64,000 bases of DNA, from positions 3,844,001-3,908,000 of the forward strand of contig NC_020520.1 in assembly GCF_000348785.1 (NCBI RefSeq), written 5' to 3'. The position numbers and the translations under genes were made by a program. Source of the DNA: Ilumatobacter coccineus YM16-304 (GTDB taxonomy: Bacteria; Actinomycetota; Acidimicrobiia; Acidimicrobiales; Ilumatobacteraceae). This document shows, in pieces, positions 6,588-10,899 of this stretch. The notes beneath the pieces are model-generated. The model saw only the letters and a list, made by a program, of their open reading frames with translations. It was not told the DNA's origin and did no database searches. The stretch's first letter is position 1. The number at the start of each line of letters is the position of its first letter.

Positions 6588-6951
6588 GCGCCCTCGACAG
6601 GAATCGAACCGTGTCGCGCCACTCACAACCGCGCCCTCGACAGGAACCGAACCCGTGGCCTCTCGCTGAGGAGACGACCACGAGATGCCCCTGTTGTACG
6701 CGCCCTCGACAGGAATCGAACCTGTGGCCTCTCGCTGAGGAGCCGACCACGAGATGCCACTGTCAACTGCGCCCTCGACAGGAATCGAACCTGTGGCCTC
6801 TCGCTGAGGAGCCGACCACGAGATGCCACTGTCAACTGCGCCCTCGACAGGAACCGAACCCGTGGCCTCTCGCTGAGGAGCCGACCACGAGATGCCACTG
6901 TCAACTGCGCCCTCGACAGGAACCGAACCCGTGGCGCGCCGCTGTTGTACG
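6588..6951 (-). repeat. Tandem array of partial tRNA-Arg 3' halves
   Basis: Downstream of the intact tRNA-Arg(CCT), six copies of its last approximately 30 nt (T-arm plus acceptor 3' strand, GCGCCCTCGACAGGAA... on the plus strand) begin at 6588, 6631, 6700, 6769, 6838 and 6907. Spacings are 43, 69, 69, 69, 69 and 44 bp. The four 69 bp units also keep an altered anticodon-arm region and a unique stretch able to pair as CTCTCG/CGAGAT. The 5' half of the tRNA is absent from them. Some copies carry a C in the T-arm where the tRNA has T, with G:U pairing still possible. None is a complete tRNA. Confidence 0.85.
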
Positions 6952-8813: not shown

Positions 8814-9449
8814 ATGGCCGTCCGTCTCGGCGACACCGCACCCGACTTCACCGCCCCCACGACGCAGGGCGAGATCAACTTCCACGAGTGGCTCGGCGAC
8901 TCGTGGGGCGTGCTGTTCAGCCACCCGAAGGACTTCACGCCGGTCTGCACCACCGAACTCGGAACGGTCGCCGCGCTCAAGCCGGAGTTCGACAAGCGCA
9001 ACGTCAAGGTCATCGGCCTCTCGGTCGACCCCGTCGACAGTCACGTCGAGTGGGAGAAGGACATCGAGGAGACGCAGGGCACCGCCGTCAACTTCCCGAT
9101 GATCGGCGACCCCGACCGCACCGTGGCCGACAAGTACGACATGATCCACGAGAACGCGAACGACACGCTGACCGTGCGCTCGGTGTTCATCATCGGACCT
9201 GACAAGAAGGTCAAGCTCACGCTGACCTACCCGGCGTCGACGGGCCGCAACTTCGACGAGATCCTGCGCGTGATCGACAGCCTGCAGCTCACCGCCGATC
9301 ACAAGGTCGCCACGCCGGCCAACTGGACCGACGGCGACGACGTCATCATCGTCCCGGCGCTCTCCGACGACGAGGCCAAGGAGCTGTTCCCTGCCGGTTG
9401 GGAGCCGGTCAAGCCGTACCTGCGCGTCACCAAGCAGCCGAACCGCTGA
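8814..9449 (+). CDS. 1-Cys peroxiredoxin (Prx6-type)
   Basis: A 211-residue thioredoxin-fold peroxidase. The active-site motif is DFTPVCTTE with the peroxidatic Cys near residue 45, preceded by the conserved SHPKDFTP. The long C-terminal arm (YPASTGRNFDEILRVIDSLQ ... VKPYLRV) and the lack of a C-terminal resolving Cys mark the Prx6 subfamily. It reduces H2O2 and alkyl hydroperoxides in the cytoplasm. An AGAGGAG Shine-Dalgarno sequence precedes the ATG. A perfect inverted repeat lies upstream and a strong hairpin follows the stop. Confidence 0.94.
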   Translation: MAVRLGDTAPDFTAPTTQGEINFHEWLGDSWGVLFSHPKDFTPVCTTELGTVAALKPEFDKRNVKVIGLSVDPVDSHVEWEKDIEETQGTAVNFPMIGDPDRTVADKYDMIHENANDTLTVRSVFIIGPDKKVKLTLTYPASTGRNFDEILRVIDSLQLTADHKVATPANWTDGDDVIIVPALSDDEAKELFPAGWEPVKPYLRVTKQPNR

Positions 9450-9536: not shown

Positions 9537-10028
9537 TCAGAGCAGCCAGTTCGATTCGATCCAGGCGCGGACGGGTTCGGCGACCTTGTCGAGGTGCTCC
9601 GCCGGCTGATCGCGAATCTGTGTCGCGCTGATCGGCACCGCTGCTCGCTCGGGGTCGACCGCGACGGCCTCTGCCCCGAAACGTTCGGCGAGACCGCTCA
9701 CGTACGAATCGGACGAGAACACGGCGTGCGGCCCGTCGTCGAGTGGCCAGTGCGCACGGAACAGCGCCATCCACTTCTCCCACAGTTCGTCGTCGTCGAA
9801 GTCGGTGCCGAGCTGATGCGCCACCGCCCGGATCTCGACGCTCGGATGCAGGTCGGTGAGCCAGGTCGCCCGGAGCTCGCCGGGAATGGTGTCACGCTGT
9901 GTCGACCAGTTGACGTACACGACGAGCTGGTCGACCTGTTGCGCCGCCTGCTCGATCATGTACGAATGGCCGAGATGTGGTGGGTCGAATCGTCCGACGA
10001 TCAACCCGGTCGAGAATCGTTGCTCCAC
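9537..10028 (-). CDS. NadR/NMNAT-like nucleotidyltransferase
   Basis: About 163 residues. The nucleotidyltransferase motif GRFDPPHLGHSYM (HxGH type) lies at the N-terminus, and the C-terminal motif is VDPERAAVPISATQIR, which matches the ISxTxIR signature. This resembles the NMN adenylyltransferase domain of NadR, making NAD from NMN and ATP, but substrate specificity is not certain. I chose the GTG at 10028, five bases after the stop of the upstream selenoprotein gene; an ATG at 10088 would overlap that gene. It is the last gene of a three-gene operon with two AhpD-like genes. Confidence 0.75.
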   Translation of the reverse strand: MEQRFSTGLIVGRFDPPHLGHSYMIEQAAQQVDQLVVYVNWSTQRDTIPGELRATWLTDLHPSVEIRAVAHQLGTDFDDDELWEKWMALFRAHWPLDDGPHAVFSSDSYVSGLAERFGAEAVAVDPERAAVPISATQIRDQPAEHLDKVAEPVRAWIESNWLL

Positions 10029-10033
10029 GCTGA

Positions 10034-10552
10034 TCAGGAGGCTCCGGGGGTCGGGAGTTCGACCGTGTCCATCTCCGACGGTTCGCATCCGAGCGCGATC
10101 AGCACTTTGGAGAACCCGTGGAAGAGTGCGAGACCGACGCCGATCTCGGTCTGCTGTTCGGGCGTGAACTCGGCCTCGAAGGCTGCGGCCACATCGCTCG
10201 ACATCGGCCCCTCGGCATCGAGGAACGCGTCGGCGAACCCGAGCGCCGCCTTCTGCCGGTCGGACAGCGCGGAGTCGTCCCAACCGTCGTCGATGTCGTC
10301 GACCTGCGTCTCGTCGAGTCCGTCATGCTTCGCGACCGCGAAGCGAACGTTGCGTCAATAGCCACAGTCGGTGATCCGAGCGTTGCGAATTCGGACGGTT
10401 TCCTTCGTCGGATGATCGACGACGCCGTGGCTCCAGAACTGCGCGTAGAGGGCGCCGAAGCCGCGAGCCAACTCGGGTTGGTGCGCGAGCAACGATCCCA
10501 TGTTGGCGGGCTGGCCGTCGATCGCCGAGGGGAGGCGTGGTGTGGTGCTCAT
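10034..10552 (-). CDS. Predicted selenoprotein: AhpD/CMD-like protein with CxxU motif (in-frame TGA at 10355-10357)
   Basis: Read leftward from the ATG at 10552, the frame runs 65 codons to ITDCGY. It then meets TGA (10357-10355) and continues in the same frame as RNVRFAVAKHDGL for 106 more codons to a TGA at 10034. AhpD-like/carboxymuconolactone-decarboxylase proteins have a redox CxxC at exactly this point (DCxxCRN), so the TGA replaces the second Cys: C63-G-Y-U66. A stem-loop with GGTC at its apex begins a few bases after the TGA, as expected of a bacterial SECIS. The 172-residue full length is normal for the family. The start overlaps the upstream gene's stop (ATGA). Selenocysteine is inferred; a nonsense mutation is the alternative. 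No sel genes lie in the window. Confidence 0.85.
10321..10349 (-). promoter_or_regulatory. Candidate bacterial SECIS element
   Basis: Counting the T of TGA as 1, nucleotides 14-31 form a perfect 7 bp stem, GCTTCGC/GCGAAGC, closed by a GGTC tetraloop (loop at 21-24). A lower stem CGTT/GACG (9-12 with 34-37) is separated from it by a small internal loop. Bacterial SECIS hairpins recognised by SelB lie directly after the UGA and carry a GU in the apical loop at about this distance. The element is also coding sequence (residues 69-78). Confidence 0.75.
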
Positions 10553-10899
10553 GTCGTGGTTTCGTCCGCTCGCTGCACCAGGTCGAGCTTGGCGAACCCG
10601 TCGGCGAGGGCGAGGTGGAACATGATCGCCACCTGCTCGTCGTGGGCGTAGTGATCGGACAGTCGGGCGAACTGGCGATCGGTGATGCCGTGGACGTCGA
10701 CGAGGAACTGCTCGACGATGTCGATCACGCACTGCTCTGCCGGCGACACGTCGTCGGGCAGGCGCACACCGGCTGCGGCGGTGCCGACCAGCTGTGCGAC
10801 TCGGGTGTCGATGAGCTCGGCCAATCGTCCAGGCGTGCGTCCGGCCGCGTCGCGGCGGAGTTCGTCGGCCTGTTCGAGTAGTGGCGTGTTCGTGAGCAT
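10549..10899 (-). CDS. AhpD/CMD-like helical protein without CxxC
   Basis: A 116-residue all-helical protein. The C-terminal helix DEQVAIMFHLALADGFAKLDLV resembles the conserved helix of carboxymuconolactone-decarboxylase/AhpD-like proteins, but there is no CxxC and only one Cys. It overlaps the start of the selenoprotein gene by 4 bp (ATGA), so the two are probably translationally coupled and may form a hetero-oligomer. A weak GGGAGAT-like Shine-Dalgarno sequence precedes the ATG. Function is unknown; a structural partner of the selenoprotein is an inference. Confidence 0.7.
   Translation of the reverse strand: MLTNTPLLEQADELRRDAAGRTPGRLAELIDTRVAQLVGTAAAGVRLPDDVSPAEQCVIDIVEQFLVDVHGITDRQFARLSDHYAHDEQVAIMFHLALADGFAKLDLVQRADETTT

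Follow-up and report, generated by a model that had tools for sequence, protein, structure and literature searches.

A predicted selenoprotein of the CMD/AhpD family in Ilumatobacter coccineus and its paralogous partner lacking the CxxC motif

Organization of the locus

The stretch of DNA analyzed here, which we refer to as the window, comprises 64,000 nucleotides of the genome of the marine bacterium Ilumatobacter coccineus YM16-304, a genome that consists of one contig of 4,830,181 bases; coordinates are those of the window unless the contig is named. The gene of principal interest (10034..10552, minus strand), which we call Sec-CMD, is recognized from its open reading frame, a Pfam match and its relatives as a predicted 172 aa selenoprotein gene of the AhpD/CMD family. 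The frame begins with an ATG at 10552, ends with a TGA at 10036–10034, and contains a single internal TGA at 10357–10355 (minus strand), which is codon 66. When this TGA is translated as selenocysteine (Sec) the product has the motif D-C63-G-Y-U66 (DCGYU), with Sec at the second position of a CxxC. The original prediction described a frame from 10552 that is intact on both sides of this TGA, and its coordinates are exact; that the TGA replaces the second Cys of the CxxC is likewise borne out by the translated frame. The product, with its CGYU motif, scores 32.4 bits with the Pfam CMD/AhpD family (PF02627; cut-off 23), and falls below the cut-offs of three NCBIfam models (TIGR01926, 25 of 81.8; NF041047, 20.9 of 110; NF053654, 34.2 of 310). 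Nor did any of 16 aligned members of the family score over a cut-off in the NCBIfam output, whose listed cut-offs concern the window's protein only.

Directly upstream on the same strand is a second gene (10549..10899, minus strand), the partner, whose TGA overlaps the ATG of the Sec-CMD gene in the sequence ATGA. It codes for a 116 aa AhpD-fold paralogue without a CxxC, identified through a profile, a structure model and a tree. Downstream, a NadR-like nucleotidyltransferase gene (9537..10028, minus strand) starts 5 bp behind the Sec-CMD gene, and a convergent gene (8814..9449, plus strand) encodes a peroxiredoxin (PF00578 and 1-cysPrx_C). Among the 80 relatives described below, the NadR-like gene is near the Sec-CMD gene in eight (L063–L070), and these eight near relatives have both the NadR-like and the peroxiredoxin genes after it; in L064–L070 a minus-strand frame, nitroreductase-like by eye, lies between. 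Within 3 kb of the relatives the largest cluster of neighbors is a set of minus-strand frames in 42 loci, which look like antisense shadows of the Sec gene and its partner, and the next family is present at 14 of the 80 loci, on both strands. Elsewhere in the window there is a tandem array at 6618–6935 (period 69, 4.6 copies, 93% matches) that is open in more than one frame.

Conservation of the in-frame TGA

Relatives were sought in named genomes using two peptide patterns, neither of which includes residue 66, and the best 80 of 94 were kept. Codon 66 is TGA in 77 of these 80 and TGC in the other three (L071, L083 and L126), which together with L020 and L039, both with Cys, provide the Cys homologues whose alignment had been proposed as a check. 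The original prediction regarded the gene as a rare case, a description ill-suited to the family, where TGA is the norm. At the level of the order, 23 of the 25 orthologues with E values below 1e-23 have one TGA and the same C-x-x-U motif. By their record titles the best 80 of 94 relatives belong to the Actinomycetota, Chloroflexota, Gammaproteobacteria and a few other groups, although some titles look unreliable: L066 is titled Bifidobacterium breve and L106 Klebsiella pneumoniae, but their proteins are like those from bins of Acidimicrobiia and Gammaproteobacteria, and both are probably mislabelled metagenome bins. Within the phylum the Sec-CMD family is rare in the sample taken, in that a family profile run over 396 genomes matched seven at an E value of 1e-20, with a TGA in the window's gene only.

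The 106 stop-free, conserved-looking codons reported to follow the TGA are confirmed as 106 sense codons, and the stretch evolves like protein. Compared with L059, identical residues number 51 of 65 before the TGA and 69 of 105 after it, and 59 of the 108 base differences after the TGA are at third codon positions.

A SECIS-type hairpin behind the TGA

Comparison with the relatives places a SECIS-type hairpin of class I at 10327..10344 (minus strand), with a 7 bp stem (GCUUCGC/GCGAAGC), a GGUC loop, and 17 nt separating the TGA from the loop. The comparison set contains 104 TGA sequences, 77 from the named relatives and 27 from a genome search, of which 29 were assigned to class I, 63 to class II and 12 to neither; the 12 unclassed sequences were left out and identical rows removed, such that 27 class I and 57 class II sequences were counted. 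Class I, the type found in the window, has a GGUC, AGGU, AGUU or CGUG loop behind 17 nt and a 7 bp stem, and class II has a 5 nt loop starting with CGUG behind 24 nt. The members L072–L080, L082 and L084 (mostly Chloroflexota by title) fit neither class; by eye, their stem bulges on the 3′ side and their loop is CGUG, which may represent a third SECIS layout.

There are several indications that these stems are maintained. First, the upper stem of class I is 98.4% paired across the 27 sequences and five of its seven pairs have changed on both sides; in one example GCG GTC GCG corresponds to ACG GTC GTG, a paired change that alters two amino acids. Second, class II is 92.2% paired across 57 sequences, with 51 double-change cells versus 14.3 in shuffles. 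Third, in each class the observed pairs outnumber those of every one of 1000 synonymous-codon shuffles, whichever of the two codon nulls is used (class I, 186 of 189 versus shuffle means of 157.8 and 175.5; class II, 368 of 399 versus 284.8 and 322.6). These counts lean towards structure, since the classes were assigned by the pairing itself. Some measures give no such signal: under the stricter of the two codon nulls the shuffles also attain the 24 complete stems of class I, and in class II neither the pairs with a double change (3) nor the pair types (12) are above the shuffles. Folding energy is weak in both forms, with the window hairpin alone folding no better than shuffles (single sequence, z −0.29) and the synonymous-codon test giving a mean z of −0.65 directly behind the TGA and −0.49 to −0.17 at later offsets, and pairing at fixed positions was therefore used as the SECIS test. 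The comparative evidence thus supports a putative SECIS hairpin directly 3′ of the TGA, whereas the single-sequence fold is not significant. An additional three-pair helix below the class I stem was considered and rejected, being only 33% paired. A class I covariance model run on the host genome returned the two Sec-CMD genes, both of them training rows, and one match at chance level, and so does not list other selenoproteins of the genome.

Selenocysteine machinery in the host genome

The components that the original prediction proposed to look for, selA, selB, selD and tRNA-Sec, are all four in the host genome, so that an absence of Sec machinery is not the case. The tRNA-Sec scores 66.5 bits, over the Rfam cut-off, and is reported by ARAGORN as a tRNA-SeC with anticodon TCA; selA (413 bits) is adjoined by selB (275 bits in one search, 291 bits in another); and selD (369 bits) has its own in-frame TGA in SHGAGUGCK. 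Across the order selA is over its cut-off in 175 of 298 genomes, with a match in 185 of 298, and it is matched in 22 of the 23 order genomes with a TGA-type orthologue, the exception (G170) being 83% complete. Of 32 of the 80 relatives' genomes, 29 have selA over the cut-off, one has a partial match and two have none. All three of the genomes with TGC have selA over the cut-off, and Cys forms therefore occur where Sec is still used.

Two further genes of the host bear in-frame TGA codons. An FdhA-like frame (L142; contig 3455269–3457146, minus strand) has one and is likely a further selenoprotein, and a second Sec-CMD gene (L050; match at contig 204955–205299, minus strand) has the motif CHTU, its own partner upstream and an AGUU-loop hairpin, with an FdhA-profile match about 200 bp away.

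Taken together, the TGA in 77 of 80 relatives, the hairpin with its double changes, and the Sec machinery argue that 10034–10552 almost certainly encodes a selenoprotein; the Cys homologues and the covariation of the hairpin behind the TGA are in keeping with the original prediction that it does.

A partner without the CxxC motif

The partner gene, which the original prediction leaves unmentioned, is a more unusual part of the locus than the selenoprotein itself. A Pfam scan of the window's partner gives no match, and the gene is matched (E 2.9e-9) by a profile built from the C-terminal extensions of eight fused orthologues. With a wider seed, the partner domain is found with 78 of the 80 relatives (best 80 of 94), directly upstream on the same strand in 69 and fused behind the Sec domain in nine; it was not found in L105, which is at a contig end, or in L115. 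None of the 78 partner domains contains a CxxC. Of the 25 order-level orthologues, 23 have a partner (eight of them by construction of the first profile), the two in which it was not found being L035 and L042. The pairing of a putatively live with a putatively dead enzyme is thus near-constant across the loci of the family.

Partners also accompany the Cys members L020, L039, L071, L083 and L126, and in L020 the partner domain is fused in front of the Cys domain. Among eight more distant Cys homologues, two have a separate partner (L148, 70 bits; L151, 114 bits), L150 gives a weak match within its own frame (20 bits), L154 has a weak separate frame (15 bits), and in L147, L149, L152 and L153 no partner was found besides the CMD protein itself. 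The occurrence of partners with Cys members, L148 and L151 included, indicates that pairing does not need Sec. No partner was seen in L044, L047, L053 and L054.

When four of the partners were compared with the Pfam CMD family, L137 (38.2 bits) and L072 (32.6 bits) passed, L131 (21.5 bits) was just short and L129 gave no match. In a quick tree of 72 rows, consisting of 31 of the 78 pairs, the window's pair and eight Cys-CMD rows, all 32 partners are on one side of a branch with SH-aLRT support of 97, in a tree of which 31 of 69 inner branches are weak. The active-site segment, measured from a conserved Arg to the acidic residue of the next helix, is 52–53 residues long in the 12 Sec proteins measured versus 31 in the window's partner, and is 27–31 residues in the dead half of all nine fusions. 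Across the 78 partners it is at most 34 residues in 23, 40–44 in 12 and 47–54 in 43, and many of the full-length partners retain the first Cys (C-x-x-E).

Structure models

The model of the window's partner has a pLDDT of 95.5. In a Foldseek search the top nine matches are AhpD-fold chains (TM 0.70–0.76, probability 1.0, best E 0.019), with no match at an E value of 0.001, and in VIA the Z scores of AhpD-fold chains reach 12.7, those of unrelated chains beginning at 4.9; no Sestrin is among the VIA matches listed for the partner alone, a result that excludes nothing. Two AhpD-fold domains in the order live then dead occur, by sequence, in the nine fused relatives, of which L129 was modelled; in the window they are two genes, the dead one first. 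The model of the natural fusion L129, in which Sec was entered as C and which is based on nine rows, has a pLDDT of 80.9 (57–65 in blocks around the active site) and a pTM of 0.85. Its best Foldseek matches are Sestrin2 chains over both domains (E 8e-4, TM 0.64–0.74 by model length, rmsd near 10), and VIA aligns it with Sestrin2 over 261 residues (Z 23.8, rmsd 3.0, 11% identity), with single AhpD-fold chains at Z 13.0 at most and the first unrelated chain at 3.2. Among the VIA matches listed for this model no chains other than the Sestrins have two AhpD domains, and the Sestrins would therefore lead for any AhpD pair packed like an AhpD dimer.

By sequence, a fusion profile compared with PDB sequences at E values up to 10 has no Sestrin among the 13 matches listed, and Pfam assigns five fusions to CMD and none to a Sestrin family, one fusion also having two weak unrelated families; in both searches weak matches may be filtered out.

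Relation to known systems

The selenoprotein itself is of a known kind. AhpD-like selenoproteins with CxxU have been known since 2005, and AhpD-like, CMD-like and distant AhpD members are listed in surveys of the Sargasso Sea (PMC1088965) and GOS (PMC2398784) and in PMC1794560 and the reviews PMC9312934 and PMC13188914; the original prediction was correct that such surveys include AhpD-like members. An arsenite methyltransferase/AhpD fusion selenoprotein and the clustering of Prx-like and AhpD-like selenoprotein genes are also described (PMC13188914). Sec-CMD shares with these the CMD/AhpD family, Sec at the second CxxC position and a bacterial SECIS, but differs from them, as they are described, in its dead AhpD partner, which the available text of PMC1088965, PMC2398784, PMC9312934 and PMC13188914 does not mention. 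It is the dead twin and the Sestrin-like fusions that are the new aspect. Among the open-licence PMC papers listed, titles and abstract beginnings contain nothing on Sestrin with selenocysteine and AhpD, on a heterodimeric AhpD selenoprotein, or on selenocysteine in Ilumatobacter or Acidimicrobi-.

The closest solved sequences are PA0269/AhpD of Pseudomonas aeruginosa (2ijc, 2o4d, 7xw1) and Atu0492 (2gmy), with E values of 9e-16 to 1.4e-12. These have the same fold as Sec-CMD, although PA0269 has a CxxC and a His four residues past the second Cys where Sec-CMD, which is also accompanied by a dead partner, has Sec and Arg. The human stress protein Sestrin2 is described as two AhpD-like halves, arranged like the YP_296737.1 dimer, of which the second is without catalytic residues and has a helix-loop in place of the helix-turn-helix (Kim et al. 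2015, PMC4674687). The fusions resemble Sestrin2 (5dj4, 5cuf), so described, in that a live AhpD-fold half precedes a dead one whose active-site segment is altered. However, Sestrin2 keeps the first Cys only, whereas the window has Sec at the second position and two genes, and the fusions have by eye no DDYDY hinge and no sequence match to Sestrins among those listed. Fused AhpD dimers whose N-terminal half has no Cys are reported from the bacteria Corynebacterium ureicelerivorans and Comamonas aquatica (PMC11429811), and like the Sec-CMD/partner pair have one live and one dead AhpD domain. According to that description, the dead half of these dimers is N-terminal and the helix-turn-helix is kept (as stated for Corynebacterium), whereas in the Sec-CMD family it has a gene of its own or, in nine of 80, is C-terminal with the segment shortened, and the live half has Sec. 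L020, with its dead N-terminal domain and Cys C-terminal domain, looks like the Corynebacterium/Comamonas type. The word selenocysteine is absent from PMC11429811, a 2024 Sestrin review whose authors report having found no bacterial fused dimer with the acidic hinge and give a helix deletion within the C-terminal domain as the key difference; this deletion and the hinge are, in their account, what distinguishes Sestrins from the prokaryotic analogues found.

Catalysis, proposed mechanism and alternatives

E51, C63 and U66 have the same spacing as E74, C86 and C89 of YP_296737.1. In AhpD a disulphide forms between the two cysteines after reaction with hydroperoxide (PMC4674687). The M. tuberculosis-type AhpD relay, with Glu and His around the CxxC, is incomplete in Sec-CMD: E51 is kept, the His is absent, and in its place is R70, which is invariant in 16 aligned rows; the window's protein has Y65, a position that varies in the family. 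With R70 in place of His and a variable Y65, AhpD-type peroxidase chemistry is uncertain. The most probable role of the protein is that of a peroxidase or disulphide reductase with Sec that would act as a heteromer with the dead subunit.

We propose, as comparison and the machinery genes suggest, that the hairpin brings in SelB together with Sec-tRNA; the TGA of codon 66 would then be decoded as Sec and the terminal TGA would stop translation. The oxidant of U66 might be a disulphide or a peroxide, in the latter case perhaps a hydrophobic alkyl hydroperoxide; C63 could resolve the oxidized U66 as a selenenylsulphide, which a thiol system of the cell would reduce. Synteny and fusion suggest that the dead twin pairs with the Sec subunit in the manner of AhpD protomers or Sestrin2 halves, and it may be a structural, regulatory or ligand-sensing subunit. 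A heteromer of the Sec protein with its partner is probable, and the explanation as a whole, with Sec decoding through the hairpin, a C63/U66 redox pair and a dead twin paired with the Sec subunit, seems to us likely.

Several other readings of the locus can be considered. One is that Sec-CMD is the AhpD-type reductant of the peroxiredoxin encoded at 8814–9449, the two forming an AhpC-AhpD pair. The end of the peroxiredoxin gene lies 585 bp past that of the Sec gene, and nine relatives have the gene nearby (L059 and L063–L070; 80–83% identity, all among the 12 nearest, L059–L070), but it is on the convergent strand and is present at nine of 80 loci (the flanks being 3 kb or less, and in some cases truncated where the contig ends), compared to 78 of 80 for the partner; we consider this pairing unlikely, and as a general role it has been demoted. 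A second reading accepts the selenoprotein and takes the partner to be merely a co-transcribed duplicate, with the Sec protein an ordinary AhpD-like homo-oligomer, as its single-domain closest solved relatives would allow. This seems rather improbable given the presence of the partner at 78 of 80 loci, its fusion behind the Sec domain in nine and in front of the Cys domain in L020, and the modelling of L129 as a single two-domain unit with a pTM of 0.85.

More speculative are the readings that follow from the likeness to Sestrins. It is conceivable, if doubtful, that a live Sec-AhpD with a dead AhpD represents a bacterial, selenium-using counterpart of Sestrin, with the dead half a sensor or regulator and the Sestrins descending from or repeating such a pair. 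If so, the partners would show the dead half in different degrees of change, some being full length and retaining the first Cys and others having lost the active-site segment, and the fusions may be candidates for the helix deletion in the C-terminal domain, the first of two Sestrin hallmarks in PMC11429811. A sensing role of the partner is itself rather doubtful. A specific form appears quite unlikely, namely that the pair is a bacterial proto-Sestrin in which a small molecule, possibly an amino acid, is sensed by the dead subunit, which in turn gates either the Sec subunit or some signalling partner. The live-dead order in nine fusions, the Sestrin2 match of the L129 model, and the shortening of the active-site segment in the dead half of the nine fusions and in the window's partner, as described for Sesn-C, are consistent with it. 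Against these, an acidic DDYDY-type hinge was not seen by eye in the segments inspected of the dead halves, where the segment is shortened (31 versus 53 residues), no Sestrin is listed by sequence at E values up to 10, and the top rank of the Sestrins is expected for a pair resembling an AhpD dimer.

Finally, that the TGA is a true stop in a pseudogene or a sequencing error, as one in-frame stop and a hairpin not significant as a single sequence might suggest, is ruled out for practical purposes by the recurrence of TGA as codon 66 in 77 of the 80 relatives, the covarying hairpin, the protein-like change after the TGA and the complete Sec machinery.

Significance

Ordinary gene finders would cut the Sec-CMD gene in two, and the analysis presented here rescues it. 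It adds a family that has Sec as a rule, with members in the Actinomycetota, Chloroflexota and Gammaproteobacteria by record titles. If the Sec protein and its partner do form a heteromer, the pair would provide a testable bacterial model for the origin of the live and dead halves of Sestrin.
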